Below are positions 4,078 through 54,833 of a stretch of DNA of 64,000 bases, piece after piece. The position numbers and the translations under genes are program-made. The DNA lies in the NCBI GenBank assembly GCA_963920765.1, contig OY987245.1, forward strand, positions 22,770,727 through 22,834,726, in the 5' to 3' direction. This stretch comes from Ulota crispa (Eukaryota; Streptophyta; Bryopsida; Orthotrichales; Orthotrichaceae). Within the stretch, counting starts at the first letter, position 1. Every line of letters begins with the position of its first letter. The notes beneath the pieces were generated by a model that worked only from the letters and a program-made list of their open reading frames with translations, searched no databases and was not told the DNA's origin.

Positions 4078-4398
4078 AACACCATATTCATTAAATTGGG
4101 AATTTTATACGGACCATTACAATACAACTTGGGAATCTAGTTTTCCCAATTTAACCCTTAAACGTTGAGAAGGCATTGTATATACAATGCCGTATAATGG
4201 GCATTTGCTACCAACAAAAGGTTGTAATTTGGGATCTCAAATAGCTCACTATGACCGCATGGATCTATTCTCCAACTTCTTTGTTGATCTCAAATGTAAT
4301 ACAAGTGTGGATGCACTCCAAATACAAGAAAAATACATTGTATTGTACCAGTCGCAAAGGGCTGCCTCATCCTTTAGGGGTTAATGAATATGGTGTTT
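4078..4398. mobile_element. 91-bp palindromic MITE, split by a TTAA element
   Basis: The ends are AACACCATATTCATTAA and its inverse TTAATGAATATGGTGTT. The insertion is flanked by GAG at 4075-4077 and 4399-4401, a 3-bp target-site duplication confirmed by the empty site at about 7850-7860 (TAGTGAGCTATT). The 226-bp element at 4155-4380 plus one TTAA interrupts its right arm. Without these, the MITE is a 91-bp near-perfect palindrome with 24-bp matching ends. Confidence 0.75.
4155..4380. mobile_element. TTAA-flanked piggyBac-like MITE, small type, copy 1
   Basis: It starts CCCTTAAACGTTGAG after TTAA (4151-4154) and ends TCCTTTAGGGG before TTAA (4381-4384). It sits inside the right arm of the 4078-4398 palindrome. 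The left arm has CATTAAATTGGG, and the right arm reads CCCAATTTAA, element, TTAATG, so exactly TTAA was duplicated. It is 226 bp and non-coding. Confidence 0.75.
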
Positions 4399-4480
4399 GA
4401 GCTATTTAAGACCCCAAGTTAAAACTTCCTATTAGTAGCAAATATCAATTATACGGCAACCTATCTACTATGCCCATGGA

Positions 4481-6028
4481 ATGTATAAGTGTTAACCCTT
4501 GTTTAACGTCATATTTGTTAATTTGGGTCAAAACGGTCATTTTGGGACTTCTGAAAAATTTGGGAAAATTGGGGTGATCACCCCAAACCAAGCCCCTTTG
4601 GTACACGTGTCCTCATCTGAGAGGAAGAATTTGTGAGGGAAAAAATCTTAGTGGCTGAGATTGAATTTGATATCTTCAAATCTAATTTGAGATGACTATT
4701 TTGAATTGAGGTGGAGTACAAAATGGTACCTTTATTTTTCCTAAATTAACGAGTATGACGTTATTTGTACATACAATAACTGAGCTTTTGCACTATGACT
4801 CCACAAACACGTATGTGCTTAATATATCTAGCCCGTCTTTGTGGCCCTCAAAAAAATTGATGATGAATCTCCAAAGCAATGATTGGAGATAACTGGCTAT
4901 TATTTTAAATTAGACTAGTTGAAACGACGAAAGAATAGGTTGAAATTTGAACTTATTGGATGTGAATCAACCAATTTTTTCAAGAATGTCAAAGTATAGT
5001 ACATCACAATATAAATATAAGAAGTATTTGATGTATGCTCGTGAAGGAATTGCTGGAATTTAGTTGGTGAAACTAAGTTTTTTTCCTAAATATTGCCTCG
5101 AATTGCCCAATACAAGAAGGAAGAAAATCTAGGCAATTTTTGCTACAATCTTACATTATTTTGACATTGGTTACTTTAACAGCAGAAACAATAAGTGAAT
5201 CAATGAATGAAACTGCCAAATGCTTGTCAAAGAAATATTACATGCACTAAAATTTGGATGAAAATTACTAACATTGGCTATTTCTATACATGAACAAGCA
5301 CCCATGGATGATTCTATCCATAGTTTATTTACTTGTATGCATTCTAGGATGCATGCTGCTTAACCTGGATGCAAAAGAAAAAAAGAATCCCATGGTTTCA
5401 ATGTATGAGTTTTAGCCCTTTCAGGTTTGTGGTTGATTTGGGGGGTGGGCAAGAGGTTTTCATGTTTTAAACTTAATATAGATGAGAAATACTTAGCTGT
5501 GATTTGTGATGAAGATCTGACCATATCATTGGAATGGGATTTGATGCTTGGACCTTCACAATAAATTTGGTGGCAATTGAGGGTTCCTTTGTTGCAAATT
5601 ATAGTAGATCTCTCAATCCATATATGGTGAAGTGAGCCTGCATACAACAAGCTACTTTTGCCACCGTATTTCTTGCTGAAGAATTCTTTTTTGTTCTTAT
5701 AGGGCAAGGTTTCTCATTTTTTACCATCAAGAACCATATGGAACTCCAACTTGGCGTTCCCCAAACTTATGTTTATCAATACAAATGCCATTCTCTTTTG
5801 CATTTAGGGATGTCTTTCTCCAATGATTTGTGTATTTTCAACCTCCATGCACGTAGTTTTTTCAACCCCTGCACCACATGCCGACACGGATCTTCATGGA
5901 ATATGTCCTATTACATTCATTTTTGAATTCCCCGCACCCATCCTCTTTCATCCATAACCAAATTCATTGTCAAACTTTGGCTACCAATGATAATGTTCTA
6001 AATTGACCAAAGAGTGGTCGACCAGACC
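4481..6028. other. Intergenic DNA, nothing recognised
   Basis: AT-rich sequence. A TTAACCCTTG at about 4492 resembles an end of the TTAA family, but no partner end was found. The ORFs at 5360-5707 (-) and 5738-5926 (+) show no known motif and no splice support. Confidence 0.4.
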
Positions 6029-6032
6029 TCAA

Positions 6033-6678
6033 CCCCTAAATGCCCAAGGCCTTTTTGAGCTTCTTGGACTTTTTATGAAACTGAACAATCAACCAACTTT
6101 TTCATAAATTTCATCAAGTTTTTTATAAGTGTAACCGTACAAATTGAAACTAGACATGTTAGAGATCACATGAAAAATGAAAACACAACAATATCACTTA
6201 TAGTTTGAAAGATTATAATGTTTGAACATGGGGATGTTAAAACTCCAAAAGTGACTTGAAGTCTTCCAATCTTCATTTCATATGTCAAATTTAAAAAGTT
6301 GGTCACCAAAAAAAGATGAGATTTAAGGTCACCACATCTCTAACTTTAATCAATTTACAGTTTTCAAAATCTACTCCTACATTTTTTTTCAATGAATTTT
6401 TAATGGAGATTTTCTCTAAGCTCTATTGTATTTGAGGATCATTTTCAAGATTTTCAAACTTACTAGAAAACTCAAGATTGTAGTGAACACCATTGTACAA
6501 AAACTTGAATAGAAAAATCATGAACATTCATTTTCAAAATCAGATTTTTGATGTTGAAAATAGACTTCAAAACAAACTTATATTATAAGAAGATTACTCA
6601 AAATAGTGATTTGATAAGATTTTCTTCATCTTCAAAGTTTTGTAAACACCCACATTGGGTGCCTTGCACATTTAGGGG
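6033..6678 (+). mobile_element. TTAA-flanked piggyBac-like element, subfamily B
   Basis: A 646-bp non-coding element. The left end is CCCCTAAATGCCCAAGGC, preceded by TCAA (one change from TTAA). The right end is GCCTTGCACATTTAGGGG, followed by TTAA (6679-6682). Its interior matches 31884-32515 in the opposite orientation, for example TTTTTGAGCTTCT near the left end and the TTGGTCACC region. Confidence 0.75.
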
Positions 6679-6972
6679 TTAAAGGGTTAAGCTCAATGTA
6701 TAATTTTGACACCTTGTGTGCTGTATTTTGCACTTTAGGGTGTCTCTACACACCTACTTTTGAAAGAGGTGCATCTAATGAAAACCAGTTTTCATTTGCA
6801 GATTTTCACTTTGAAACCAAAACTAACTAAGGTGTTCCATGTACTTCAAATGCATGATCAAATTCTAACTTGGGCTTTTGATTATATTATATCTAAAGTC
6901 CAATATATGTGAATTATTTAGTTATGAAAGATTACATTTTGACTATATTGTCTTTTTTTTTCCTCCTTTTAA

Positions 6973-7320
6973 CCCTTAAAGGACGGATGGATCACTGTGG
7001 CTTGCCCTGCCTGTAGCATTTTACAGTGTTTTGCACATGGGCACCAGTAGTATTGCTTCAAAAAGTTGGAAAAGTCAATAGTGCATGGTGCCCTCATGAA
7101 AATTGCAAGAAGGGCAGCTCGGGAGCTAACACCGTGTACCACAATTTGAGTTAAAAAATAAAATGAATGTATCTCAATAGGTAAATTTTTGCCTTCCATG
7201 ATGCACTACGCTCTTATGATCACTTCTGAAAAAAATCAGATCAAAATCGATCTTTTTCTGGGATACAAAGTTATTTTTTGGAGGCAACGGACGTCTTTCG
7301 TCCATGCCGACGTTTAGGGG
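6973..7320. mobile_element. TTAA-flanked piggyBac-like MITE, 348 bp
   Basis: TTAA at 6969-6972 is followed by CCCTTAAAGGACGGATGGA. The right end is the inverse of CCCCTAAACGTCGGCATGGA and is followed by TTAA at 7321-7324. It is non-coding. Confidence 0.7.
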
Positions 7321-7324
7321 TTAA

Positions 7325-7741
7325 ACGACCAAGTTTTTTTAAAAGTAGTCCTTTCGAAAAACCAAATCTGAGAGGAAAGCGTCTCCTGAATTTTACCAGG
7401 GGGTCAAGTTTTTATCTTGCCTGGGCTTCTGGAGTTCCGATCTCCAAGAACTCAGAAACACGTGAGGTGGCACGTCGGGAATGAATTGCTTTGTCAAACC
7501 TCGATGCTGGCGATGGAGAGCTGTAATCTCGTCGCTTGCTTCTCACCGACAAACGAGAGCCTTCTAAGAACAAAGCAGTGGTACGGGCCCAGCAGGATTC
7601 CGAACTCTCGTCCATGCGGAGATGTCTTTGCATCGGTCGAATGGCAGTGACGGACGGTGATAAGGTAACTTTGAGTTTTCAATTCCGAGGCTGTTCTTTA
7701 GCAAATCCGAAGGAAGAAAATTCTGGTACCCTTTTAGCGTG
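7325..7741. other. GC-richer unique segment, unassigned
   Basis: This stretch is clearly richer in G+C and CpG than its surroundings. It has open frames on both strands (for example 7417-7650 +, 7494-7682 -), but none resembles a family I know and no intron signals support them. It could be an old exon, a regulatory CpG-rich remnant or transposon cargo. Confidence 0.35.
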
Positions 7742-7878
7742 TCTTTGTGACCAGTACAATACAAGGTATTTTTCTTGAACTTGAAATAATTTCATTCCTT
7801 TACTACATTTAAGATCAACAAAAAAGTTGTAATATAGATTAATGCAATTCTAGTGAGCTATTCAAGATTCCGAATTAA

Positions 7879-8791
7879 TCCCTAAAATTCTTTTGTGTTT
7901 AGAGGCCCAAAACTGCTTCAAAATACTAGTCCTCAAACTAGGGTCAAAATTTTCATTTAAACTTACTTTTTAACAAATCCAACCGTAGGATCCTTTGGTT
8001 GACTTGCACAAGTACATTATCCCAAAATTTCAAAATGAATATCCCCACCAATTGCAAGATCAATGTGCCTAAATTTCAAAATGTAAGCTTTTCTAGTCCT
8101 TCCAGAAGGTGAAGTTTTGTTTTTCAAACTTTTTAGAGAAAAACTTGTATGTTGTATTTCTTGTGCAATTTTTGCAACATGTTGGAGAATGGGTTGAAAG
8201 CATATTTTAAAAAAACTAACCAAAAAAAATTTTGGATTCATTTTTACAAAAATTGTAAAGTGAAAGGTATTGATGAATGAAAGATATAACTAATATGCTA
8301 ATAAGTTTTAGAAGAATTTGAAAATTGTTAATTCCAATGGTGAGACTGCTCTAACAAACAACTAGTAACTTTCATTTTCATTTTCATTTGAAAATTTTCA
8401 AAATTGAGAGCAAAAGATAACTTTATATGTTTTTTCTACCCTCTTCCTACCTTCATTGCCTGCAAAATAAAACTCCTTGTAACTTTTACCTCATTATTTG
8501 GAATTGAGTGGTTAAATTTTTTTTGAGTAGGTATTGATCTGTAAATTTCTAAAATTAAAAATAAAAATAAAAATAGAATATATTTTTTGCTACCCAATTT
8601 GACATTGAAATTGAAAAAACCTTATAGCTTTTGCAATACTTATCGGAATGACATGAAATAAAGCTTCTCATGTAGATTATGATGAGTAGCATCCATCCTA
8701 AAAGTTTCATGAAAAATTTCAAATTATGAAATCAATAGAGCCTGCCCAAGTTCTCATAAAGCCCAAAGTGGGCTCCTTGGGCCTTTAGGGG
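7879..8791 (-). mobile_element. TTAA-flanked piggyBac-like element, subfamily A
   Basis: A 913-bp non-coding element. The left end is TCCCTAAAATTC after TTAA (7875-7878); the right end is GGGCCTTTAGGGG before TTAA (8792-8795). The interior is a diverged relative of 8796-9723 in the same orientation (ATCCAACCGTAGGATC, then GCCTGCCCAAG near the right end). It shares its right TTAA with the next element. Confidence 0.7.
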
Positions 8792-8795
8792 TTAA

Positions 8796-9723
8796 CCCCT
8801 ACAAGACTGAGCCATTTTTTCAGTGAAAATCACTCAAAACTGCCACTTTTTGGGGTTAGTAAGAAGGTCATTATTTTTGAAAATTTGGGAAATCCAATCG
8901 TAGGATCTTGCCCTACACTAGATTAGGTACTTGTGGCAAAAAAAACTAGGTCATTTTGGATGGACATGAGTGAGATATTTACATCTAAAGTGAAGAAAAA
9001 AGTATAATTTCATGCTGCCGCAAAATTTCAAAAGCCTTTGACCATTCTTACATGAAAATAATCTCTTTACGCAACTTTGTGCTTTATTTTTCCCATGTAG
9101 GAGATCAAGTTAGCATTGTGTGGGAGAATTTTCAAATCAATTGGAACTACACAACACATAAGAAAAATCAATAAGTAAAAAGTAGAGAATGAGTCAAATC
9201 ACTAAGTTGTTAAGAATTTATTTATTAAAATGAAAAATGCAAATCCCAACGGTCATAATGTTGTGATAAACAATCTACATCCTTTGGTTTTGTTTTTCTT
9301 CCAAAATAACAAAAATTGAGTAAAATAAAGTACTTCAAAGTTTATTTTAGAGTAGAGATTCCATAATTGCCCGCAAACAAAAACTCCTCATAACTTTCAT
9401 GTCATTGATTGAAATTGAATAATTCAAAGCTTCTCACCTATAAAAAATCTAAAGAACCAATTTCAAAATTCTTTGTTTCAAAACAAATTAATTTTTAAAA
9501 AAGTTTTTGGGCTGCCCAGGCGGGCACTCCTCCCTTGCTTTTCAGATTTTCATGCATAACTTCTTCAATAATTGCCGGAATGAGGAAAAAATTAAATGAC
9601 CGCGTAGATCTTTGAATTCCCCACCTTCAATAAAAGTTTCAGAAAATCACACAAAGTAACTTATCCAAAGATACATGCCCAAACTCCCACCTGTCCCCCG
9701 AAGAAACAACAGTCCTTTAGGGG
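8796..9723 (-). mobile_element. TTAA-flanked piggyBac-like element, subfamily A
   Basis: A 928-bp non-coding element directly abutting the previous one; the junction reads GGGG-TTAA-CCCC. The left end is CCCCTACAAGACTGAGCC and the right end is AGTCCTTTAGGGG, followed by TTAA (9724-9727). It is the reverse-orientation relative of 33273-34194 and 53902-54833: its right part has ATGCCCAAACTCCCACCTGT, the inverse of their left part. Confidence 0.75.
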
Positions 9724-9776
9724 TTAATACTTCTTGTTGGTCAATAATTCAACAACTTATATACTATGCCCTATGG

Positions 9777-12471: not shown

Positions 12472-13365
12472 CTGTACTGTACAGTACCGTATCAGAAATT
12501 TTCGTCACCCTGTTTTGCCAATCCAACAACCTTGCATCATACTGTGCAAAATCAGAATTTTGTTGATTTGAATCATAGAAACTTGATTCTTATGCAATTC
12601 CAATCAAGCATACTAAATTTTGATTCCTAAAAACCAAAACTCTATTTTTGGTGAATTGTTTTGTTATGAATTCATGGTTTTACAAAAGAATTGATTGAAA
12701 AACATTGGTGATGAATTTCTGAGATTTGATTGCATGGGTATGTGGAAAACATCCATATGCACATCTTCCATGCTGAAAAGGACCCTCTTAATTAACAAAA
12801 AAATTACCTAATTTTTTATCAATGTGACTTGTGATATGCCCAAATTTTGTAGAATAGATATTTCTTTGTTATAATCAAATTTTGTTATTTGATTCACACT
12901 TTGTGACAAAATGTATACTTTTTATTATGATGTTACATGAACTTGGTGAAAAGCTAGCTAAAAAGTAAAAATATTTATTCTACAAAATTTGAGCATATCA
13001 CAAGTCAAATTGAAAAAAAATTAGGTAATTTTTTTGTTACTTAAGAGGTCCCTTTTTAGTATGGAAGATGTGCATATGGATGTTTTCCACATACCCATGC
13101 AATCAAATCTCAGAAATTCATCACCAATGTTTTTCAATCAATTCTTTTGTAAAACCATGAATTCATAACAAAACAATTCACCAAAAATAGAGTTTTGATT
13201 TTTAGGAATCAAAATTTAGTATGCTTGATTGGAATTGCATAAGAATCAAGTTTCTATGATTCAAATCAACAAAATTCTGATTTTGCACAGTATGATGCAA
13301 GGTTGTTGGATTGGCAAAACAGGGTGACGAAAATTTCTGTTACGACATTGTACAGTACTGTACAG
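12472..13365. repeat. Long inverted repeat (foldback element), arms about 397 bp
   Basis: The left arm at 12472-12868 and right arm at 12969-13365 are near-identical inverted copies around a loop of about 100 bp. The outer tips contain CTGTACTGTACAG-type sequence, followed by CAGAAATTTTCGTCACCCTG. The arms carry only a few mismatches and are non-coding. The transcript would fold into a long hairpin. No clear target-site duplication was seen. Confidence 0.85.
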
Positions 13366-14814: not shown

Positions 14815-15074
14815 TGGACATGATATATGTTAATTTGAGAAAAATTCTTTCCCAAAACAAGTTTTAGGAAACTAAATTTTACATTTGTGAGAATATTTTG
14901 GTGATTTGAAGTGAGTTGTTTGATAATTCCTTCAAGATATTTCATCATTGAAGTAAGGGCCTTGAAGAAATCATCATAAATTTCACTCCTAAATGATCAA
15001 AAATCTCTTAAAATCATAAATCCAAAAGTCCCAAAATTGCATATTTTCCCCAAATTCACAAATATCACGTTCTT
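14815..15074 (-). mobile_element. MITE family with AATTTGGGAAAAA ends, copy A
   Basis: A 260-bp non-coding repeat. Its reverse complement matches the copies at 15583-15833 and 20780-21027 over most of its length (shared TGATGATTTCTTCAA and ATCAATGATG-type blocks). Ends such as GAACGTGATATTTGTGAATT and its inverse form terminal inverted repeats. Confidence 0.7.
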
Positions 15075-15582
15075 GGGATCAAGATGAAAGTAAAACATGG
15101 TTGGAACATTCTCGTTGCCAAACCTTGTTCTCTCTTTCCTCTCCCTCCTCCTTACCCTTCCCTCTCTCTGCCGTACCTCTCCCCTCACGTCAGTCCTTCT
15201 CCCTTCCCTCCATTTTCCTTTCTTCCCTTTTTCTCTCTTTTCCTTCTCTTTTTGGTGAATTTTTTTGAGAGCTTTTGTCTTCTTTGATTATAATCCCTTG
15301 CTTCTTGTTGCATTGTTTGAAACTTTCACAATTATCTTGCAACATTCAAACTGGAATTATAATTGATTCCAAGACTTTTAAGTTAAAAGTTGGGGCCAAG
15401 AAACGTGTTATTTTGCCACCTTCTTTAGTCCAATAGTGGGTTCAATATTGAATTTTTAAACCTAGACTTCCATGGTCCCAACGCCTACTGTAAAGTACGC
15501 TTGCCTTCATATCCATTTTTGCATTTTTGAAATATATGTGCCGCACTCTTATTTCCTTCATACCATCATATGTTGTGCATAG

Positions 15583-15833
15583 AATGCAATAATTGTTAAG
15601 TTAGGAAAAAAACACAATTTTGGGATTTTTGGATTCTATATATTTTTTAAAATTTTGATAATCTAATGTGAGTTCATGATGATTTCTTCAAGACCTTACA
15701 TCAATGATGAAATATCATAAAGGAATTATCAAAAATCCCATTTTAAATCGACAAAATCTTTTCACAAATGTAAAATTTAGTATCCAAAAGAAATTTGGTA
15801 AAGAGTTTTTCAAAATTAACGAACATTGTGTTC
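15583..15833 (+). mobile_element. MITE family with AATTTGGGAAAAA ends, copy B
   Basis: About 250 bp. It begins ATGCAATAATTGTTAAGTTA and ends TTAACGAACATTGTGTTC, and is closely related to 20780-21027 in the same orientation. Confidence 0.65.
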
Positions 15834-16039
15834 TTTAATAAAAACTCTTGTTTTTGACTAATGAGTTTGTTACATTGATTATTGTAAACTCAAATTGATT
15901 TCTAGCTTGCTTCGAGAAAATCAGCTTCTTGTTGTACAAGGCGTCATACACTCATACCTAATTCAACAGTGTCAATTGGCATTTCCAAGAAAAACTCATC
16001 TACATATATAACAGAAAACACTAGCGATGCTTTTATTAT

Positions 16040-16827: not shown

Positions 16828-16830
16828 CTA

Positions 16831-20276: not shown

Positions 20277-20779
20277 GTCTCCTAATCTATTTGTCCAAAA
20301 CCATCATTGGTAAAGATCAAATTGTACTTGATACATGTCAATTTCTATAAGGATACTCTATTTTATTAGAGCACATTTGTAAAGTAATGTTTTGATATCT
20401 TTTTATTGCAAGAATGCACCATTATTTCACCAACAAATTGAATTTTTATGGATCTTGGAAAAAACAAATTCAAAATTTTCTCTTACCACTATTCTCTAAT
20501 TTGGAATGTGGATAATCAAAGTTCTAAGGATCCTCAATCAACAAATGAAGAAGAAATAAGGATATAGAAAAAAAAATGCTTCTGTTAATGTGTTCAAGGG
20601 TATATGGCTATATCATTGGAGTTGGTGTAATCATACAAAACTTCCTAATGAAGCCAAGTAACTTTCCTAAATAAGCCAAACATGAAAAGGAACCCAAAGC
20701 AAAATTATCAAGTATGGCATGTTGACTACCTACGTGTTGATTTATTCATTAAAAATTAAACAACAAAAATAACTATAAT

Positions 20780-21027
20780 GCAATATTCATTAGTTTGGGA
20801 AAAAAATACATTTTGAGACTTTCGGATTTTATGATTTTAAGAGATTTTTGATCACTTACAATGAATTTCATGATGATTTCTTCAACATCTTGAATCAATG
20901 ATGGAATATCTCGAAGGAGCTATCAAAAATCTCATAATAAATCATCAAAAGTACTCTCACAAATGCTCAATTCCACATTCTCAAAATACATTTTAGGAGA
21001 GATTTTTCCAAATTAGCGAATATTGTG
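20780..21027 (+). mobile_element. MITE family with AATTTGGGAAAAA ends, copy C
   Basis: About 248 bp. The ends are CAATATTCATTAGTTTGGGA and the inverse of CAATATTCGCTAATTTGG. The interior (ATGATTTCTTCAACATCTTG, CAATGATGGAATATC) matches copies A and B. Confidence 0.7.
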
Positions 21028-22102
21028 TTCTATACACTAAAGTGACATTCGGCAATGTGCACATACACAACCACAAAAAGACATGTTTTAGCATTCACTA
21101 GAAAACAAATACCTTGATAGGATGGAGTTTCTTCACTAATTTTTATTCTTTACCTTAATCTAACTAAATTTAGTCTACCATGGATACAATTGTAACAAAA
21201 TGCAAGTAGAGTAGTGTTGTTTAGGTGACTCCTTTCAACAAATTTTTGACACAGTTGTGTCAAAAATACATTACACAGAATCTCATTTTCAACACTTGGT
21301 CTTCAAAAAGGTCCCACAGGGAGTTGAACTCTATATGTTTGACAAGAGTGTTGTAAAAGAACAAGAAAGATATCGTTATAAATATACGGCAAACACAACA
21401 CTCTTTTTTTATGGTAATGCACCACATATGACAAACTCTTCCAACTAGACCCTAAATACTGGCTTGTATCTGTGAAATACAGTAGGCCTACGACATATAA
21501 TTTCATCTAACAATTATTTGCGAATTTGAAGCAGAAGACAGTAAGTCTATTGTAATATCATAGAGTTTGATGCTGCTGAAAATATCTTCAATACACTTGG
21601 TTTCAATGATCTGCTCAAAATTCACACGGAATTTTTACACGACCGATAAAAAACAGCGGCTTTTACATGGATCCAATGCTAAGTTTCTCTAAGGGGTTCC
21701 TGACAGCCAAGTATTTGTAAGTTAAATTTCTCCCTTCTCACCTTTGCTATACATATCGTGGACAGTGTTGCACAAGTCTGTATGAAGATCCACAATCAAG
21801 TTGAAACAAGTCATTGAACCTGCACTACCGAAGAATATACCCCCTGCTAATCTGTTCACAGAGTGATAAAAACATCGAGAATTTAACTCGAAATAGGTAG
21901 TATCAAACTAAACTGAACAGGATCTAACCTGTTGAGCAAAAAAAGTTGATGAGTGCAAGAATCAGGTCAAATATTGTGGCAGTAAGCTACAATAGTGGTA
22001 AGCAAACAATGGACGGCAGAGTTGAGAGCACACCAGTCAGATGTACTCTGAAACGGAAGAGAACTAATAACTGCAATGGCGACAAGGTGACCGACTGCAG
22101 AA
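21028..22102. other. Intergenic DNA and 3' flank of SnRK1
   Basis: The right part must contain the 3' UTR of the minus-strand SnRK1 gene. The small frames at 21257-21448 (+) and 21303-21506 (-) have no recognisable product. Confidence 0.4.
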
Positions 22103-27382
<5,280 letters not shown>

Positions 27383-29124: not shown

Positions 29125-31883
29125 TTAGTATACCAAAGCTGTAGTTACCACGAAATAGTTTATGCACGAAAAAATCGGGCTGGGAATGATAGTTCCACCA
29201 TCGCCAGCTTGCTCGCAAAGCTCCATTGCAGAAACAGAGAGACGAACAATATAGTGTGAGAGAGAGATAATCGAAATAGTGTGATCGTAATGACTAGTAA
29301 CAGCAGAAGCAAAACGAAATAGAGTAGCTGCACTAATTACCATGACTCTTGCACTGAAACAGCGCGTGCTAAAACAATCATCATAAAAACGATTATTCAG
29401 GACACATTTACCTCTAGATTTTACTTGGCAATATTTTTCTACAAATGGCTTCTGTTCAGTGGAACTTATGCTTAATCTAATGTGTTTTATATAAGAAAAA
29501 ACCTTTTGAATCTCAAGAGGCCATTCCTTTAGGCACTTCATTTGATGTTCTGTCCAGGAAGAAAAGGTGCTCCACGTAGCATGGAACATCTTACCGAATT
29601 ACTGTCCATCTTCCATTCTTCTTAAAAATAAATAAATAAAATGCTAAAATGTTCGTGTGGAGGGGGTTTTGAAGTTAGAAATTTTCATCATTAAAGACGT
29701 GTATGGTTTGGCACCAATTTTCATCATGATGAAACAAATTTTGTTGAGGGGAAAATTAGACAATAAAACCAGCTCTTATAAAACTAAGTTACCAAGTTGC
29801 TTTGTCACTTAGTAATATGCAACTTTGGAACCGCGTATCAAGTTTAAAGATTAATAATGATTAGTGTGGAAGGGGGTTGGTCCGCTATCTCTGACCGTGA
29901 GCCCTGAGGGGGCGGGGTTCCTTGAAAAGGTCACTAGGGTCTTTATAGTTTTGAGCCAGCCCTACACTACGACCAATGAACCTGGAGGAAAAGATCTAGA
30001 AAAATGACGAGAAAAAGGGAAAATCAGAAGGTTTGGTGGCGTGGAAATTAGTGACAGAGAATATGGTATGATGAATGTGCAGAGCCCCCCTTCGCACATG
30101 TATGGTGGGAAATGGAGTAGAGAAGCCCTGGCCCCTGGATGCCAGAGTGCAAGTACCTGCGGAGGAGGGTGAGCCACAAAGGACAAGCGTGCACTGATGT
30201 GGGACCCCTGTCCTTTTGCAAAGAACGGCAAGCCAAAGATCTTTGGGCCCCACGGAAACAGTGCCAATTTAACTTACCAATGCCCCCTCGATAAATGATA
30301 ACCCCCCATAGCTACGACAAATCCTCATGAGTTTCCTAGAATTTCATTATAGTCTGACTCGGGCACCACTCTGTGGATGAAAAGTATAGAAAATAGCGCG
30401 TCATTTGGATGTAATGAACCCTACATGGATGTTTCTATAAGTTTGTTTGCTTACGTGTATGCGTTCTAGGGCACGTGTCGATGTGAGAACACTAAATATT
30501 CACGTCTTTTTCTATTGAAACTAAAGGGCGGCACCAGAATCAGTAAATTTTCTTCATAGCGTGGCATAAGCAGGGGGGAGGGGCTGCATGCAGAGGGAGG
30601 AGGAGGGCTCGGTTTGGTGCGCATACGTTGATGTGGGGCCAGGGTGGAAAAGCTCCAGTTTATTTACGTCACGGAAATGCAAGAGCTCAGGAAATTGAAT
30701 TAAGGAACTTTGAATTCACGTTTGGACTTAGAGACGCTCTTCAATCATGCAAGAATGTTGCCTCCTAAAGGGTTGGTTGTATTCATTTGAGGACCATTTA
30801 GCACTTGGAGGAAATGGCTTGAAGATAAGTGTCAAAAAATTTCAGAAAATGTTAGTTGACTATTAGTATGGTTGTAACTTGGTTTGAGATTTACAACTCC
30901 AAGGGGATTCATGTGCTACCCAATTGTCTCATTTGTATACAACATGGGAGATTGTATACAAAACAACAACATCTTTGGAGCATCCGTATTGTTACACACA
31001 AAACACACCTAGAATACCACTTTTGAGTGTGTGCTCTACTTGGCGCACCTCACTACAAATGCACTAACACCATATGCAAGCCAACGCTTGCTCAATTGTA
31101 GCTCAAAAACAAAAGCATCAAAGGTTTGGGTAATCTACTAACATGCCTAAATTTTGGATAGTCAAAGCTTGCTAGTTGGTTAGCAATAGAGACTTGTGAT
31201 TGAAGCTTGTCACTTGTCCTTTGTGATACGCTCTCTATTCTTGTTTCAAGGCAACCATGAGGCATATAAGATTTGAGCAAGCCAGTAATCATGGATGCGC
31301 CCTTGGTACCAGCTCCAAGTTGCGTGCAAGATTGCAAATGCTCTTAAAGGGTTAAGTTTGAAATTATGGAGAGATAACTGAACAACCCAAAACACAAAAC
31401 AAATTTTTACTATTATCCTTGTTTGTAAAAAAACACTTGATCTTTTCTACCCTGACCCATAACAACGTAAGTTATGTGCAGTAAGGTGGAAGCACCAATT
31501 GCCAACAATTCCCCATTCCCAACTAGTAGAGTGTGCTATTTCCACCATGAGCAAGGATAGGTGCTTTGGAATGCATTTTTTGACTTTTTAAGGTTGGGAC
31601 CACTTAAGTCATGCCACATGTCCCAAAGTGAGGTAGGAAGTAATGAGCTAATATTAGTTTGGCTATTATCAGAATTGCATACATCTAGACATTGGCAATG
31701 GGTGTGAAACACTTTTTGACTCCCAAAATTCACGATAATTTCAGTTTTGCAAATAAAATTATGAAAAAATTGCAATCCCAATATTTCTTATCTTCCTACA
31801 TGGGAAAAATATTTTTTGCCTCAAACTCTTTGTAGTTTTTGCAGAATTGCTTAAGTTATTGGGTATGGGTGCATCCACCTTAA
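29125..31883. other. Intergenic DNA, no gene recognised
   Basis: The region contains a 154-residue open frame at 29125-29589 (-), a GC-richer patch at about 29880-30300, and an 81-residue frame at 31092-31337 (-). None has a motif I can name. AAAGGGTTAA at 31347-31355 looks like an isolated end of the TTAA family, without a partner. Confidence 0.4.
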
Positions 31884-32515
31884 CCCCTAAATGCTTGAGG
31901 CACCAAATTTTGGTGTTTGCAATACTTTGAAGTTCAATAAACATAGCTAAGCTGCTATTTTTAGAAATTTATGTTTTGGAATTATTATTTGTGAAGCCTA
32001 GTTTTAGGATCAAAAATCTGTTTTTGAAAATGATTGATTATGAGTTTTTTATTCAAGCTTTTGTGCAAGGGTCTTGACTTTCTCTAGTGCTGAGAACTCT
32101 TAGAAACGAGCCTCATATACACTAGATCTCGGAGAAAAAACCACACTAAATATTCATGTGAAAAAATTGTAGAAGAGATTTTGAAAAGCTATAAAGTGAT
32201 TGGGGTTATGTATGTTGTTTCTTTTAACCTTGTATTTTTTTGGTGACCATTTTTTGAATCCAACAAGTAAAAAGAGAATTCAAAGGCTTCAAGTCATTTT
32301 TGTAATTTTAACACCCTCATGATCAAACATTGTAATCTTCCAATCCATTAGTGACATTGTTGTGCTTTTTTTTCCCATGTGACCTACAACATATCTAGTT
32401 TGAATTTGTACAATTACAATTTAAAAAAACTTTATACAACTTATTGAAATGTCACGTTTTTGTTCAGTTGAAGCAAGTTTCTAGAAGCTCAAAAAAAGCC
32501 TCAGGCATTTAGGGG
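31884..32515 (-). mobile_element. TTAA-flanked piggyBac-like element, subfamily B
   Basis: A 632-bp non-coding element. TTAA (31880-31883) is followed by CCCCTAAATGCTTGAGGC. The right end GCCTCAGGCATTTAGGGG is followed by TTAA (32516-32519). The ends are inverted copies over about 17 bases. The interior matches 6033-6678 in inverse orientation. Confidence 0.8.
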
Positions 32516-33160: not shown

Positions 33161-33161
33161 C

Positions 33162-34215
33162 CCTTACAAGGAAACCATGGTCAAATTTACAAAAAGTTGA
33201 CAAAGATTGTGACTTACTCTACAATATATTGTAGAGTAGGTCACAATCTTTGTTAACTTTTTGTAAATTTAACCCCTAAAGGACCAACTGTTTGTTCAAC
33301 GGACAAATGGGATTTTGGGCATGTACCTATGGCCAAACTACTTTGCATGATTTTTTGAAACTTTTATTGAAAATGGGAAATTCAAAGATCTGCGTGGGCA
33401 TTTAATTTTTATTCCAATTGATGCCTGGGAGCAAAAGTTATGCCCAAATAAGCACAAATTTGGGGACTCCGAGTAGCAAAAAAAATTCTTATAAAAACTT
33501 GAAAAAAAAAGTTAATTTTTTTTTTCTCATAGATTATATCTTTTTCTACATCTGAAGCTTTGATTTATTCCATTTGGACTAGTTGTGAGAAAGTTATGGA
33601 CAATCTTGTTTTTTGGGCAATTCAAGCATATTCTTAAAAAAGTAACTTATAAACTTCATTTTTGAATGCAATTTTAACATTTTTTCAAAAAAAATTGTTG
33701 GAGCTAGTGAAGCTTGCTTTCTAGAACAATCTCACCATTGGGATCATTGCATTTCAATTCCATTGCAGGGTTATTAGCAATTGAAGTTTTTGTTCAATCT
33801 CATACCTTCTTCTGCCTAATGTTTTTTTTTAAGAATAAAAATTAATTACTTTTTGTTTTTTTTTCCCAAGATTACCAACTCAACTTCCCACCATGCAAAA
33901 ATAGAATTCCAAACTTTGTGGTGCAAAAATTTTAAGTTAAAAAAGTTCAAAGTTAAATAATCTAAACATGCAAGGTGCAAAAAAAGCTATCTTTTACACT
34001 TTAAATGCAAATATCTTCCAATATGTACGGTCAAAGTTCTTGAGTTTTGTGTGACACATTCTTATAGTAGTCTAGTACAAGATCCTACTGTTAGATATGC
34101 AAAAAGACCAATTTTCAAATTTTTTTACTCTTTGCCATAGAGGTGGCAATTTTGCGTGTCTTTTGACAAAATAAAGGCCATGGTCCTTTAGGGGTTAACC
34201 ATAGTTTCCTTTTAG
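33162..34215. repeat. Palindromic element split by a TTAA element
   Basis: The left half (AAGGAAACCATGGTCAAATT ... CTACAATATATTG) and right half (CAATATATTGTAGAG ... TTTGTAAATTTAA) form a tight hairpin centred near 33227. The right arm resumes after the 33273-34194 insertion as TTAACCATAGTTTCCTTTT, matching the inverse of the left arm (GACCATGGTTTCCTTG). Confidence 0.75.
33273..34194 (+). mobile_element. TTAA-flanked piggyBac-like element, subfamily A
   Basis: A 922-bp non-coding element. TTAA (33269-33272) is followed by CCCCTAAAGGACCAACTG; the right end GGTCCTTTAGGGG is followed by TTAA (34195-34198). The left part carries GGGATTTTGGGCATGTACCT, shared with 38830-39540 and (with small differences) 53902-54833. 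It sits in the right arm of a palindrome whose left arm keeps the uninterrupted site. Confidence 0.8.
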
Positions 34216-37255: not shown

Positions 37256-37740
37256 CCAATTTTTAGACTAATGTCCACCACCGCCGCTGAGTTCTATCTC
37301 CCAGAACCAGAATGATTATCCCTGTTCAATGGGTTTACATTCATCCCCGGATATGGGGTACTGTTTCCTTCCCCTGCCACCTTTGTAGCTGTCATCTGTA
37401 ATTCTTGAGGTCTATAAGGGGCATTATGATGTCAATCCAGAGGGCATAAAAAGCATCCCGACCTTGTCGCTGAAAAAAGAATATGTTTGCTATGCCCTAT
37501 CACGTAATATGCAAGTGCCTTTTTTTCTAATAACAGTTGAATGGATAAAACCCTAGCTGCTTAAAAGCGATCGTTAGATTTGCATAAGCGCGAATTACAG
37601 ATGACAGCTACAAGGGTGGCAGGGGAAGGAAACAGTACCCCATATCCGGGAATGAATGTAAACCCATTGAACAGGGATAATCATTCTGGTTCTGGGAGAT
37701 AGAACTCAGCGGCGGTGGTGGACATTAGTCTAAAAATTGG
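37256..37740. repeat. Near-perfect 149-bp inverted repeat with 187-bp spacer
   Basis: The left arm at 37256-37404 (CCAATTTTTAGACTAATGTC ... CATCTGTAATTC) and right arm at 37592-37740 are inverted copies with only about two differences. The spacer is unique and AT-rich at its right end. The arms are much less diverged than other repeats here, so the duplication is recent or maintained. The right arm abuts the rRNA fragment at 37742. Confidence 0.9.
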
Positions 37741-37741
37741 T

Positions 37742-38829: not shown

Positions 38830-39540
38830 CCCCTAAAGGACCAAGCCCCCTTTTGAGGGACAAATGGGATTTTGGGCATGTACCTATGGCTAAACTATTT
38901 TGTGTGATTTTTTAAAAAATTCATGGATGGAGAATTCAAAGATCTATGTGGGCATCCAATTTTTTCTTCATTTGGACATTTATGGAAGAAGTTAAAAATG
39001 AATTTCTGGAAAAAGGTTCAGATTGGGCAACCCAAAAAAAATTTAAATTTTTTATTATAAATAAATAAAAATATGAAATAGGTTCTTTAGACTTATATAT
39101 AGGTGGGGTGCTTTGAATTATTAAATTTTCATTTATGAGATGAAAGTTATGAGAAGTTTTTGTTTGCAGGTAGGTATGATTTTGAGAGAAACCATACCTA
39201 CTTGCAAACTAAAACTTCTCATAACTTTCATCTCATAAATGAAAATTTAATAATTCAAAGCACCCCACCTATATATAAGTCTAAAGAACCTATTTCACAT
39301 TTTTATTTATTTTTAATGCAATTTGTAAGAAATTTTTGCGCTGCCCAATTTAGACCTTTTTCTTGAAATTCATTTTTAACTTCTTCAATAAATGTTAGAA
39401 TGAAAAAAAAAAATGCCCACATAGATTTTTGAATTCCCATCTTCCATAAAAATTTCAGAAAATCATACAAAATAGTTTAGTTACAAGTACATGCCCAAAA
39501 TCCCATTTGTCCCCCGAGGGGACAATTGGTCCTTTACGGG
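38830..39540. mobile_element. TTAA-flanked element made of two left halves (inverted dimer)
   Basis: A 711-bp palindrome. TTAA (38826-38829) is followed by CCCCTAAAGGACCAAG; the right end CCAATTGGTCCTTTACGGG is followed by TTAA (39541-39544). Both ends carry the left-type subterminal sequence (GGGCATGTAC; GGGATTTTGGG), unlike 33273-34194, which has distinct left and right halves. The arms meet near 39180 at CAGGTAGGTATG. Confidence 0.85.
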
Positions 39541-39544
39541 TTAA

Positions 39545-41609: not shown

Positions 41610-44600
41610 ATGCTTAGAACATTTGATTTAGAATGGTGTGAAGCTATGATGGAGCTTGTGGAGCTTTTGAAAATAGAATTTCCACAAAATATTGAACAAT
41701 GGCCAATAGTGAGTTTAAATTTTGAACTCAATTTCTATTATTCATAAATAAAAATTTGTGTCAATTATTTTTGACAAACAACACACACTTGTATATTGTT
41801 TTTTGTAGAAATTGGACCAATTCAAAAGAATTTACGTTTTGTATCTTCAAATATATAGAAAATTGGAAGATGCATTAGACCAGGTGACTTCACAAAGCTA
41901 TTGTTATTTATTTTCGGATCCTACATATTTTGAGCACATGATTAAATTATCTTGAACTTGTAATAACATCAATTGTTAACATAATAAGGTTTACTCAATA
42001 TCTTATTGCTTAAGGTAAAATTTACTTTTACAATTAAATTAATAAGAAAAAATCTTATTAGATTGTGCATCCACAAAAGCGTCGATTTGCAAGGAAAGGG
42101 CTTGACTCTTGCATTGGTCGAATTCTTGAAATAAAAGGGGTATTTACTAGTGAACTTTTACTACAGGAACACCTTTATAATTCTATTTTTTCTAACATAA
42201 ACAACACTATAATACTTTGTACAAACATAAGATTAACTAACGTGCTTTTTGAAAGTATTGTAATTACAAGAAAAAAAAATAGTAGATGACTTAATTAAAT
42301 CTCAGTGGATATATATAATCATTGAAAATTAATCATTTAGTACAAGTATTTATTTTTTAATTTATTATTTCAAAAGCATGATGTTTTTGTGCTAGAAAAA
42401 TAAAATATATCATTGAACATTATGCCTAAATTTGGCTTTCAAAAGACAGATTAAATACCCGCAATTAACTGATTTTGTGGGAGGGGATTGTTTTAGTGGA
42501 TGGTGCAATTAAACGAAAACAAGGAGTATTTCAACTTTGATGACATACTGGCAAGTCATGACTTCACATTGTAAGCCATTGTATTTAACTTGGTCATTTA
42601 AGTAAATTCCTAATTACATTAGAACTTTTTGTAAAATTTACTATATCATGTAATTGCATGTGTAAATATATGAAAATTTAACTCTAAATTAAATTATCTA
42701 ACAAAAAATCTTTAAAATCTTTAAATCCTGAGATTTATGAAATCCCTATTAATGGAGTCTACCTATCCGCAAACTAAAATTTCTCATAACTTTCATCTCA
42801 TTAATGGATATTGAATGATTTAAAACTTCCCACCTAAATATAAATCTAAAGAACCAATTTTTTTTAAAAAAACAAACTTGAAATGTAATTTTTAAAAAAG
42901 TTTTTGAGCTGTCCGGGCTGCCCTAACAAGCAAAGAAGACAACATTTCTTGCAATAACTTTTGAACCATGTAATCCAAAGTTATGAAAATTGTTGGGCCT
43001 TAAAGCTACTCCTTGGGTACTTCATGTGTGAAAATAAAATAATAATAAAATGCAAAATCTATTTGTAGTGACTTGCCCAAAGTCACTACACAGCTCAAAA
43101 AATGCTGCGAACCTTGAGGGGTTAAGCATTTAGGGTTAAGGGCAAACTTCTGTGTACACCTCAAATTTAGAAAACTAAGAAAAAACAAACAGTTTTACAA
43201 ACTTAATTGTTATTCTTGAGTTTTGGGATTTTGGTCCAGCATAGAAGTTGGCTCTATGGCAAAATTAATAAATAATTTATACTATTTGTTATATGAGTAA
43301 TGATATTGAACTAAATTTTAAAATTTTATTATTTGATAGATGGAAATGCGTTTGCCACCAGACAAACTGGATATAATTCCTCCACATTTTCTTACAGATG
43401 ATAACAAAGAAATGTATAAAGAACGCGAAGAATTCTTAGTAAAACACATTACATTCAACTGTTTTAAATTTTCATGATCATTTAACTTGAACAATAGAAC
43501 GCTTTTATAAAGAAAACTTGTTATGAAACAATAATGTATTAAGAATAAATGGAAATTTTAAATTTTTTTGATACCTTCATTCCAGCTTTTTCCAAATGAT
43601 CTAAGTAAACTTTTGGTTTTCCTCTTAATATGTTTACGATTAACGTATTTCTTAGTTAAATGTATGTAGTCAAAAGCTCATATGGAAGCTGAAGATGCCC
43701 GTGCCAAAGTAAAAGCTGCAAAAGAAGCTGAAGCAAAGGCTGCAGCTGATTTTCAAGCTAGGAAACACAGAAGAGAAATTGTGGCTCCATCTCCTCCTTT
43801 GACTGAAGATGAATGCATCATTTTAATTCAAGTAGTTACTAAAAAAACATTTACTATCTCCACACCAAACTTCTCAATGAAAAAACAAGAAAAGAAAAGA
43901 AAACTGAAAAACTTTACTTACATTCACCAAGTTCCACATCAAAAAACTCATGGAAAAATATGATATTTGATTGTATATATATTAACGTTAGAGAGATAGT
44001 CTCATTAGTTTTTACATGAAAACTATTTTTTATTCAATTTTAAATGATATTACATTTAATTGCAGTCAGAAGAAAGGGGAAGACAAAGCCGACTCAAAGT
44101 CAAGGAACTTGCAAAACAGAAGTAATTATTACATGCAAATTTTCTTTAACCACACACTCCCACTATAAAGATTTACACTTCAATTTTGCAGACCCAACTT
44201 CAAATGAGTAAGGTAGGACGTTCATAAATTGACCATTTAAGCCTACTAACTCATCCATGACACTGATAGATATTTGAAAGAGAATGTCACTTTTTCTTGG
44301 ATTGCAAACGCAATTAGAACTTGAGCGATTTTCGAGCCTCCTACCTTATGCTATGCTCATTAACATTTAGTGGTACTTTTATGGATCTGACCACTCTCTA
44401 ACATTCGAAAATACTTTAAATTTCACAAAAAGTACTGTAGTTTTGGAATGGATTAGGTGGTAGACTGGTAGATATGGAATAGATTAGGTGGTAGATATGG
44501 AATAGATTAGGTGGTAGATATGGAATAGATTAGGTGGTAGATATGGAATAGATTAGGTGGTGGATTTTGGAATGGATTAGGTGGTAGATATGGAATAGAT

Positions 44601-47600: not shown

Positions 47601-50600
47601 TAGATTTTTTTAAATATATAACTTGAATTTAAAACTTGCATCAATCTCCTACTTTAATAGAATTAGTATGCACTAACTTGCTTTGCGTTGTCTTCCTTTG
47701 AATTTCTAGTGACTTTTCATCTTTCCTCTCCCTCCCTTTCCTTTTGAGAATGCTAAAACGTGAGGGAATCCATGAGCTATGAGGCATGGGCCTAATTTTA
47801 TTGTTAAAATATTAAATTTCACCTATAAATGTGTACATAGGGCCTTACAATTGTGCATTACATTCATCTCTTGAAAAACTTGTTGTTTAAAAAAAAAATC
47901 ATTGATTTTGAGCTCAAAATCAATTGATTCTTGCTCACAAAATCTTGGCTCATTCACCATTCTATGTTCACAATAGCATTGTCCCTTTTTCTCTCCCTCC
48001 CCTCAATATTTTGTGACTTTTCACCCTCCCTTTCCCTTCTTTTTTTTCTCCCTTCTCCTTTGAAGTTCCAAATTTCCCCCAATGCTTGGCATCCAATGCT
48101 TCATAATACATGATTTTCAATTTGTGTTGAAAATAGAGAAAGATGAATTTCCCGCAACCAGGCTTTGTAATGAACATAATTGGGTCTCCTCCCACTTGAT
48201 TTTAATGATTTTATTATGAAAATTGTGTTTGCTAAAAACATGTGGTTGGTCAATTTGACCCCAACCACATACACACTGCACAATTTTGCTCTCTCACGTG
48301 TGAGTAAAATTGTATGGACAGGCAAGTTTTGCAACTTGTCTCCTTATATAATACCAATTTAGTACTTCTACTATTGATTTTGTTCATAAAAAAATGTATA
48401 GGTACGTATTGAAGTTGATGTTGGATCTCGAGATTTACTTGTCCAATTGAAAAAGAAAATTGCGGCTGATACAAAAGAAGCTTACATAATTGCATTAAAA
48501 GCAGCTAAGAAAGAAGGGAAAGATAAAGAATTCAAAGCCAAAGTAAAACAAGAGAAACAGCAGGCACATTTCTACAAAACTTATATAGTTGAACTAAACA
48601 ATATAAACTTTGGTCTCAAACCTTAAAACATACAATCTCATAATAAATTCAATCTTTTATACAATAAATAATCAAGTTCGTTAAGAAATAAAGTATAATC
48701 CAAACGTAAAAAGAAGTACCTATAAATAATTAGTGCTTTTTCAATTTATGTAGGCAAAAAAAGACAAAATTGCAAAGATGAAGGCCAAAAAAGAAGCAGC
48801 AGCAAAAGAACCGGCCCTTCCACCAGCAAAAATAAAAAAGAAACCCAAGAGGAAAAAAGACCCAACGGAAAAGGAATCCATAGAATCTTTAACAAAAGAA
48901 TTGGTTACCGAAGGAATAATGCCCGTTTGTCCCAAAAAATCTTTTGATGAATACATTTGCCAAGATTATTTACGAGGCGTTGAACCGGACCCAATTAAAG
49001 ACTGGTTAATAGACAATAGCATGGCTCATGTATTGAATCTATTCTTATTTGTTATTGTTGTTTTAATCAGTTTTTTAAATGTACACATTAGAAGGAAGAA
49101 TGTGCCCACAATGACTAAAACAGTGTCCACAAAATTTTATTGTAATCATTATTTAGTCATTGTGAACACAATTTTTTCTGGCGACAAGACAAATGATGAT
49201 GCAATTTGACTAATTTACAACTATTCATATAATTTTAGAATATGTAAGAACACTAAGAGGGTTTTTAATGTTTTGCATAACCCTTTCTAAAAAAAGGCAC
49301 TTGCAGCCATGAGCAAGGCGATCCAAAAAACAATAGCAAGTTAGTTAAATGAAATGTCAAAGAAATTGGTTGAAATTTTAATGAATTGGGTAAAAACCAG
49401 CTAATTTTTTGGGAAATATCTAATAGTAATGTAAGTGTGTAGGCAGTATGCCATTGAAAATGAGAAATATAGGATTTTTATTGAAAAAACTGAAAATCTC
49501 CTTAGACACTACTTGCAACCATGGCTTAGTGGTTTTGGCCTAAACTCACTAATGAGACTAATGAGGTGGTCATGAATTTAAACCCAAGCGTCAAGAAGAT
49601 GCTTACCACTATAACATGCCCAATTATGCTGGGGGATAAATGACTTTATCAGTCACTTGGGGACTTGAAAATTTCTTATAAGAAGAAACATGTTGGTTAG
49701 GTTCACCTCAGAACACATGCATCAAAGATAAAATTTGCCACCCAAGTTCATGAGGCTTAGATTGTTGAATGGCATTCCCAACAAATGCTTTGTTCACACT
49801 ATTCTTTCATACCAACGTTAACCTTCTACTTCTTTAGCCCTCCCAACGTTTTGTATATACTCTCCAAATTGTTTCTTTGTAGATTGTTATTTCTAAACTT
49901 AGAAAAAACCCAAAATTAGTTAAATACTTCATAATGACAGCATTTGAGGTTAAGTTTTTTTATTTTTTTTATTTTTTTATTTTTTTAATAATAATAAATG
50001 AAAAGGTCCTAAATGTTTTTTGTACCTTATGATCAAAATTCATGCAGGCAAAAAGGTTAACTATAGAATATGCAGTGTTGCCGCTTGCATCAGAATTGGT
50101 GCATGAGAATGCTCCTTTTGTGCGCACTCTGCTTTTACATGGTGCCAAAAGAACTGGAAAAACTCTTTTAGTATGTCCAAAAAGCTATTTCTATACTTGT
50201 AAATCATTTTCTAATATGAAGAAAAAAAGTCATCATCTAATGTTATTATTATTTTAATTTTAAAAATACCCATTTTATATTGTGTATCAAAGTTAACAAT
50301 CTACTAATACATATTTTTATTACATGTATTATATCCCAAGCATTATTGAATTTTACTAGGCTCATGCTGCATGCACTTCAGCTGGAGCAACTTTTTTTAA
50401 TTTGTCAGCAAAGATTATTGATGGTAAATACCAAGGACCAAAGAATATTGCAAGGATGCTTCAAGTTGTGTTTAAACTGGCAAAGATTATGGCCCCTTCA
50501 ATGGTTTATATTGAAGATGTTGATCAAGTTGGTATTTATCATTAAAAAGGAAAATCAACTTCTAATTATAAATACATGAAAATACATTGATGATAGAAGC

Positions 50601-52007: not shown

Positions 52008-53897
52008 AAACATAAAATCAAATGAGATTTTTTTTTATAATGAAATTGTTAGTATATTAAAAATCCTTCATGTTCTATTTTTCATATCTGGTCCTTTAAC
52101 ATAAATATTAAAAGAAAGAAATCAATTTTGAACATGAAGGATTTGATGACCCCAAGAAGAATTGAAACAAAATAAATAAATTAGTATGAATTGTTGCATT
52201 TACTAAATCTCAAGATATGTTTGAAATTACAACACCAAAAGTCAGAAAACTATTAAAATTTTGTCTCAATTCAAAAAGTCTATGCTTGTAAATGCTTTGT
52301 TAACTTTGCTATTAAGTTCAAAAAGATAGTTCACAATTTATGATTATGCAAATCATAAACACAAAAGTAGTCCAGTGTATCTTTTATACTACTTAAAGTT
52401 ATCTTCTTGTACAATAATAAAAACAAAGTTGCTCACTCATTCATTTTGTAATGGTATGTTCATAGTATGACAAATAGGTTTCTAAATATAGCAAGAGTTT
52501 ACTACATAATGCATGACGATTTGATTTAGGATTTAGAAAAGGAAAAAAAAAAAAAATTATATATTTCAAGAAAAAATAGAGAGCATTGCTTGTTGTGTCT
52601 TAAATACACATGCACATTGTACAATTTTCACATGCCCATTTAAAGCAAAAATATGAGGCAAAAACATAGGAAATATAGCAACAAACAATATATTCAAATT
52701 TTGCACTTGTTACAATGAATACCAATTACAGGGTAACAATTTCTAAGATGATTGACACTAAACCTTGTATTATTGTGAGTCATGAAAACAACACAAATCC
52801 TTAGTGTAATAAATTTGAGATGTCGTATATTTAAATGTTTATGTAGTATAACATGCAGTGACAACTGACAACCTAAAAAATTCACAAAATCAAAGTTATA
52901 TAACTCTAGAGTATAGAGCAATTCAACTTTTAGGAAAATGTTGCACCTCTAGTCACCATTCCCCTTGCAACGCTTGCTAATATATCTTGTTTAGTTCCAC
53001 TATTTACCTTACTATAAACCACAATTGGCTCACATTGCTGTTGTATTATGTACATCCATTGCTAACTACCATTTAGTCTTGGTTGGTTTCAAAGTCATTC
53101 TACAACTCTTAGCATTCTTCATTATACATAAAGATGTTTTGATCTTCCTACAAAAATAAGTGTTTTGGCTCTCACACTCTTGTAGCCATTTGATTCTTCT
53201 ACAATCTTTTTTTATTGTTCTAATAGTCTTACCAAAATCGTAAGCAACTACTTGTAAAATTGACCAACTTAATATTTGGATGTTACTTCCAATTTGAAAA
53301 TAGCTCATACACTATTGAGCAATTAAATTAAATTAAATTAATTTTTTTTAAAATATCATGAATAAGTATAAAACTAAAAGTTGATGAATGTGAGTGTATT
53401 AATTTTTGCAAATTAAAAGACTCTTGTGTATTTGAGGTTTGTATTTTAGATTTCTTGGCGTGTTTCTTGGTAAGGAACAATTTGCAAACTTGTTGTGAGG
53501 AGGTGCAATTACTTTGCATCTTCCATCCAAAAAAATCTGAAAAAAAGTAGGGGATTCTTTGCAGTGAAAGCTGAAATAGAGAACTAATAAATTGCAAAAA
53601 TGGTTGTCATCAATTGGCTCAAGTTCCAAGCTCATGTTGCAAAGCATATTTTATTATTCCAAGAAAGTTAATATGAAAAAGTTGCATCATTTTTGAGCAC
53701 TCATATCATTTCAAATAGTTCTATTGTTGTGTTGATAAAATTAATGTAGAATCTTACTTTACAATTTATTATGTTTATTGTACTTTGCATTAATAATATT
53801 AACTTGCACTAACTCTAAATAAGTAAATTTTTTACTTGCACTAATTAGATAAATCATTGTAATTTGGACAAAATCATTATATTGCAAGTTACAGTAT
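52008..53897. other. Intergenic DNA between DRC11 and IFT80
   Basis: The left end holds the DRC11 3' UTR. The minus-strand frames at 53066-53308 and 53328-53597 show no known domain. A short AAATTAAATT tandem lies at 53323-53342. Confidence 0.4.
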
Positions 53898-53901
53898 TTA
53901 A

Positions 53902-54833
53902 TCCCTAAAGGACCAATTGTCCCCAGAGAGACAAGTGGTACTTTGGGCATGTACCTTTGGATAAGCTGCATTTTGTAGTTTTTTGAAACTTTCATTGAAG
54001 GTGCGGAATTGAAATACCTACTTGGGCATCTATTTGTTTTTTCATTCCAACATTTGACAAAGAAGTTATGCATGAATTTATGAAAATTTTGGGGAGGACT
54101 GCCCATTCAGGCAGCCCAAAAATCTTCTTTAAAGTTTTTTTTTTAAAATATATTTTTTGAAAATAGTTCTTTAGATTTTTTTATACGTGGGAAGCTTTGA
54201 ATCATTCAATTTCAATCAATGGGATGAAAGTTATGAGGATTTTTTGTTTGAGGGTAGTTATGGATTTTCTACTCTAAAATAAACTTTGAAGTCCTTTATT
54301 TTACTCAATTTTCAATCTTTTGGAAAAAAATTAAACCAAATAAAGTAGACTGTTCATCACAACATTATGAATTTATGATTGTTGGGATTTACATTTTTCA
54401 TTTCAACAATTAAATTCTTAACAATTTAGTGTTTTGACTCATTCTCTACTTCTTTTTACTTCCTATTTTTTTCTCATGTGTTGTGTAGTTCCAATTGATT
54501 TGAAAATTCTCCCACATATACCTAACTTGATCTGCTACATGGAATAATATAAGCTCAACTTTGGGTAGAGCAATTTTTTTCATGTAAAGGTGGTCAAAGG
54601 CTTTTGAAATTTACGGAATGTAGGGAAAAAAGCTTTTTTTCTCACTTCAGATGTAAATATCTCCCTCCTCTCCATCTAGAATGACCTAGTTTTTTTCCCC
54701 ACAAGTACCTCTTCTAGTCTAAGGTAAAATTTTGCAATTGGATTTCCAAAAAAAAAAACTATCTTCTTACTTATCCCGAGAAGTGGTAATTTTTACTGCT
54801 TTTGACAGATAAAAGGGCTTGATCCTTTAGGGG
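53902..54833 (+). mobile_element. TTAA-flanked piggyBac-like element, subfamily A
   Basis: A 932-bp non-coding element between DRC11 and IFT80. TTAA (53898-53901) is followed by TCCCTAAAGGACCAATTG; the right end GATCCTTTAGGGG is followed by TTAA (54834-54837). It is the inverse-orientation relative of 8796-9723 along its full length (GGGCATGTACCTTTGG, GGGCTGCCC-type block, then TTCTTACTTATCCCGAGAAG). Confidence 0.8.

Follow-up and report, generated by a model that had tools for sequence, protein, structure and literature searches.

The stretch of DNA analysed here (hereafter the window; 64,000 bases, about 64% A+T) contains a family of elements that are flanked by TTAA and end in CCC, and the existence of this family was confirmed. 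The sequence supports the view that its members are non-autonomous mobile elements. We propose, with a probability of roughly 0.7, that they are non-autonomous cut-and-paste DNA transposons which duplicate TTAA and are moved by a piggyBac-type transposase whose gene lies elsewhere in the genome.

End motif and flanking sequence

All 11 copies of the initial annotation were inspected along with their flanking sequence. Ten of them have two ends and one has a single end, which provided 21 ends for comparison. The flank was TTAA at 20 of these and TCAA at one, and nine of the 11 copies had TTAA on both sides. The outer base of the flank was T at all 21 ends. Within the elements, base 1 was C at 19 ends and T at 2, bases 2 and 3 were C,C at every end, base 4 was C at 17 ends, T at 3 and G at 1, base 5 was invariably T, and bases 6, 7 and 8 were each A at 19 ends. 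Homology between copies ends at TTAA or a few bases from it.

The 21 ends had been picked in the initial annotation in part for their flanks, so more weight is given here to a count in which the motif was not selected by its flank. In the whole window, 15 matches to CCC[C/T]TAAA were counted, which adjoin TTAA in 13 cases, TCAA in one and TTCA in one, while TTAA starts at a fraction of 0.0068 of all window positions. The exact TTAACCCCTAAA was found 11 times on the two strands of the window; the mean in 100 dinucleotide shuffles was 0.03 and the largest count was 1. These numbers bear out the initial description of about eleven copies with common ends and TTAA borders, including the one copy (6033-6678) with TCAA on its left and TTAA on its right.

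Terminal inverted repeats (TIRs) were measured ungapped at an identity of at least 75% in 12 copies. They were 14–21 bp long in seven of the 12 (C1, B1, E, A1, B2, A2 and A4) and fell outside this range in A3, D, F, C2 and the truncated A5 (Table 1). The intervals of the 11-copy list were confirmed, but the one at 24764-24959 (F) is doubtful, as its TIR is short and the E-values of its ends in the end profile are weak (0.58 and 2.1). The left end of D was also weak in the profile (E 0.85).

Further end-like motifs were noted in the window. A CCCCTAAA at 34904 with a TTCA flank was rejected as an element; it sits inside a small local palindrome. Unpaired motifs such as TTAACCCTTTAA are present at 6679-6690, 31344-31355 and 43127-43138. 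Two of these three directly adjoin element ends, and they are perhaps traces of repeated insertion at the TTAA sites of element ends. The CCCCTAAA end motif of most copies includes CCCTAAA, the unit of which plant telomere repeats usually consist; this is probably a coincidence. One end pattern was compared with viral_contigs and gave 0 matches.

Subfamilies, nesting and empty sites

The copies and the paralogous sites related to them are listed in Table 1. A1 and A4 align over their full length (927 positions) with 79% identity, and B1 and B2, which lie in opposite orientation, are 73% identical over 657 columns. These pairs belong to the two large subfamilies that had been proposed, A and B; A is looser than had been stated, with A2 only 59% identical overall to A1 or A4, and there is a third subfamily, C. 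The part of A2 that is clearly similar to its relatives comprises about 142–151 bp at one end, where it is 82% identical to A1, 80–81% to A3 and 74% to A4. A5 has about 150 bp in common with the A group at 76% identity, and A3, with arms that are 85% identical, seems to have arisen when one A end was duplicated in inverted orientation. Subfamily C consists of three copies, C1 being whole and C2 and C3 interrupted, and their pieces are 74–82% identical. No second copy of E was seen within the window. The subfamilies have little in common except for about 12 bases at their extreme ends, and A1, A2 and A4 showed no clear subterminal repeats, with short weak matches only. Since the identities between copies are about 73–82%, we suggest that the activity of the family is old.

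Table 1 Elements of the family and their empty paralogous sites in the window (positions in the window; TIR in bp).
Feature	Position	Strand	Length (bp)	Flanks (left/right)	TIR	Remarks
C1	4155-4380		226	TTAA/TTAA	~15	Intact subfamily C element; inside palindromic element P1; empty site E2
C2	3942-4491			TTAA/TTAA	1	Older C copy, degenerate ends; split by P1 (4078-4397), which contains C1
C3, first piece	7743-7878					Old C copy, split by D and A1
C3, second piece	9728-9770					From alignment
B1	6033-6678		646	TCAA/TTAA	18
E	6973-7320		348	TTAA/TTAA	14
D	7879-8791		913	TTAA/TTAA	8	One TTAA between D and A1; empty site E3 (with A1)
A1	8796-9723	-	928	TTAA/TTAA	14
F	24764-24959				5	Doubtful candidate
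B2	31884-32515		632	TTAA/TTAA	18
A2	33273-34194	+	922	TTAA/TTAA	up to 21	Inside palindrome Q; empty site E1
A3	38830-39540		711	TTAA/TTAA	45	Near-palindrome of one A end
A5	42765-43121			TTAA on right	0	Truncated; right end only
A4	53902-54833	+	932	TTAA/TTAA	15
P2, part	2243-2285	-				Uninterrupted paralogue, empty site for C1; 42/43 identical
Q, part	33165-33272					First arm is empty site for A2; joined-flank match

The nesting of the copies gives an order of events at two places. C2 was followed by the insertion of P1 into C2 and then of C1 into P1; likewise, C3 came first and D and A1 were inserted into it. The sequences that host C1 and A2 are palindromic. P1 (4078-4397) and its second copy P2 (2241-2381) represent a small palindromic element with AACACCATATTCATTAAATTGGGAA ends. 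Because P1 is bounded on both sides by TGAG and P2 on both sides by TTGG, a 4-bp target duplication without a fixed sequence is suggested for this element. Palindrome Q (33165-33272 with 34199-34214) seems to be bordered on each side by TA or TTA.

Ten joins of element flanks were searched against the window, with the copy at 42765 left out, and empty paralogues were found at three sites. At E1, the flanks of A2 joined with one TTAA align without gaps to the other arm of Q (69/74 identical). At E2, the P2 counterpart of the P1 sequence around C1 runs uninterrupted through TTAA. At E3, removal of D and A1 together leaves outer flanks that continue as a copy of C1. Alignments were scored with zero, one or two TTAA kept, and the scores were 108, 123 and 111 for E1, 61, 81 and 69 for E2, and 110, 120 and 110 for E3, the highest being with one TTAA at every site. 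When each site was given 2000 random right flanks as a control, the observed score was reached by none at E1 or E2 and by two at E3, which makes E3 the weakest of the three. TTAA itself is present in one of the three empty paralogues; the others read TTGA (E1) and TTAC (E3) at the target position. The joins at six other copies (6033, 6973, 24764, 31884, 38830 and 53902) had no empty site in the window. Apparent spanning matches were not counted for the joins at 8796, 24764 and 38830, where a flank matched itself, or for that at 7879, which matched the end of another element. In view of the single-TTAA empty paralogues, TTAA is most simply the duplicated target, and the elements have indeed inserted.

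Comparison with piggyBac and other transposases

The window was examined for a transposase that could move these elements. It contains 157 ORFs of at least 70 aa, and the 150 longest were scanned with Pfam; 12 families matched at E 0.01 or better and none of these was a transposase. Six-frame translations of A4, B2 and D, with stops read through, gave matches below the Pfam cut-offs only, among which one to TnsE_C (E 0.052) was taken as noise. The statement in the initial annotation that no transposase is encoded here thus holds for the 150 ORFs and for these frames. A broken coding remnant at 2436-3714 (minus strand) looks MULE-like; Pfam returned no match for it at E 0.001, nor up to E 1 in a second scan. 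MULEs duplicate about 9 bp. The remnant was dropped as a transposase partner, for it lies outside every listed TTAA element and the MULE target duplication differs.

The features of the family were compared with those published for piggyBac. TTAA duplication is reflected in 20 of 21 flanks and in the single-TTAA empty paralogues at three sites, of which one is weaker. According to excerpts of two papers, piggyBac TIRs commonly begin with CCC (PMC10813416; PMC12732532), and the first of these names TCAA among the variant target sites. A TIR length of 12–19 bp and a CC[C/T]T motif are given in parts of PMC2872659; the 14–21 bp TIRs of the majority of our copies are near this length, whereas the narrow motif was found at only three of 21 ends. 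The same source credits to piggyBac one family with a CCCC start, namely the coral TTAA family III, which begins with CCCCTCAG, so the C at the fourth base has a precedent. The claim that the family is piggyBac-like is thus favored by its target and its CCC ends, while the C at base 4 in 17 of 21 ends and the failure to find a transposase weigh against it.

Published descriptions of piggyBac elements give the same TTAA duplication, CCC ends and short TIRs. The family hence works like piggyBac and was probably moved by a transposase of that type, but its membership is unproven because no transposase was found. In the mechanism we propose, elements of about 0.2–0.9 kb with CCCCTAAA at both ends in inverted orientation would insert at TTAA and duplicate it. 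The transposase, of piggyBac type and supplied from elsewhere in the genome, would recognize the outer 12–20 bp, cut the element out at TTAA and join it to a new TTAA. Given that the likeness between subfamilies hardly extends past about the outermost 12 bases, all of them could be mobilized by a single transposase or by a small number of related ones. Seamless excision that restores TTAA is a piggyBac trait according to passages of PMC8086355 and PMC7351741; the empty paralogues described here are paralogous sites rather than excision sites.

Among known systems, the piggyBac-type MITEs of corals (CMITEs) are similar in their TTAA duplication, CCC ends, short TIRs and lack of coding sequence, and one of their families has the start noted above (excerpts of PMC2872659). 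They differ in that they are about 100 bp long, conserved inside and accompanied by piggyBac-like transposons, while the present elements are 0.2–0.9 kb, form several unlike subfamilies in what is probably a plant and have no transposase in view.

We considered it unlikely that an undescribed plant transposase which has converged on TTAA moves the elements. Such an enzyme would be consistent with the lack of a transposase in the window, with the deviation of the fourth base from the narrow piggyBac motif, and with plant MITE surveys, in which the passages of PMC12550479 contain no TTAA class. The published piggyBac target and first three bases fit nevertheless, and there is no positive pointer to a new enzyme.

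Movement by another TTAA-targeting superfamily, Kolobok or Sola3, is less probable still. Sola3 also duplicates TTAA. So do Kolobok and its T2-MITEs in Xenopus (parts of PMC6004289), and Sola elements appear in a fern repeat table (PMC6890710). In the same passages of PMC6004289, however, Kolobok has AG or AGGRR termini next to TTAA, in contrast to the CCCCTAAA ends of the present family, in which a pyrimidine is followed by CC at all 21 ends. A passage of PMC7351741 names piggyBac as the sole eukaryotic DNA transposon with a known specificity for integration at TTAA; this statement is too strong because Kolobok, with its AG ends, also uses TTAA.

We regard as very improbable an origin from PIF/Harbinger-type elements with a 3-bp TTA/TAA target, or from Tc1/mariner-type elements with a TA target, that have a local preference for TTAA. 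TTA, TAA and TA all lie within TTAA, and both types are common in plants according to the five-superfamily scheme in passages of PMC12550479. A shorter duplication would leave the outer bases free unless the enzyme demands them, but every one of the 21 ends had the outer T and 20 of them had the full TTAA, so a 3-bp TWA or 2-bp TA duplication does not describe the data. Finally, F and single end-like motifs (31344, 34904 and 43127) are weak enough for chance in sequence that is rich in A+T and in which the CCCCTAAA motif is frequent, but chance as the origin of the whole family is refuted by the excess of TTAACCCCTAAA, by homology that stops at or near TTAA and by the empty sites.

Host and neighboring sequence

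ORFs in the window matched IFT80 models and solved IFT80 chains, and the ORF at 48754-49206 matched 8glv_Ea, which is labelled an AAA-type core-domain protein and which we take to be the axonemal protein DRC11. Genes of a flagellum would not be expected in a flowering plant. The exon at 26236-26685 (minus strand) encodes an SNF1/AMPK-type kinase, and a neighboring exon reads, in our judgment, like plant SnRK1. The host is accordingly likely to be a green plant that has swimming sperm, and probably a land plant. The window gave 0 Rfam matches at gathering thresholds and contained 0 tRNAs.

Among the matches listed from the open-licence literature, no title or beginning of an abstract described a piggyBac family native to a land plant. 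The view that such elements are rarely reported from land plants agrees with this literature, except that a fern table contains 1230 copies labelled 'PiggyBac' (PMC6890710). That table, for Ceratopteris, assigns 122,417 bp to these elements, and in its passages the label stands without ends, targets or a transposase. In excerpts, plants are named among piggyBac hosts (PMC8086355; PMC10813416), an occasional occurrence is noted, for example in red algae (PMC12732532), a plant review names PiggyBac among the superfamilies (PMC10794571), and the word piggyBac is present in several plant genome papers. With such statements on record, the host is an unusual one for a piggyBac-like family, yet not a first.

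If a TTAA family were firmly established in a land plant, plant annotation would gain a superfamily, and it could be asked whether the family descended vertically or was transferred horizontally. It would also hint at a transposase native to plants that may work seamlessly. Tentatively, we suggest that a native, long-lived piggyBac lineage with a putative autonomous transposase may have given rise, in a land plant whose sperm swim, to several amplified families of TTAA mini-transposons. If this is true, annotation restricted to the five usual plant TIR superfamilies would miss or misfile the lineage. One such scheme sorted the MITEs of 207 plant genomes, likewise short non-autonomous TIR elements, into five superfamilies and Micron, and its main text mentions neither TTAA nor piggyBac (PMC12550479).

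Other repeats are present in the window. A large inverted repeat at 12474-13358 has 390-nt arms that are 96% complementary and separated by 105 nt. Another at 37256-37740 has 149-nt arms that are 99% complementary, with 187 nt between them, and is recent. A further dispersed repeat occurs in three copies (14823-15065, 15580-15837 and 20774-21034) that are about 74–78% identical.
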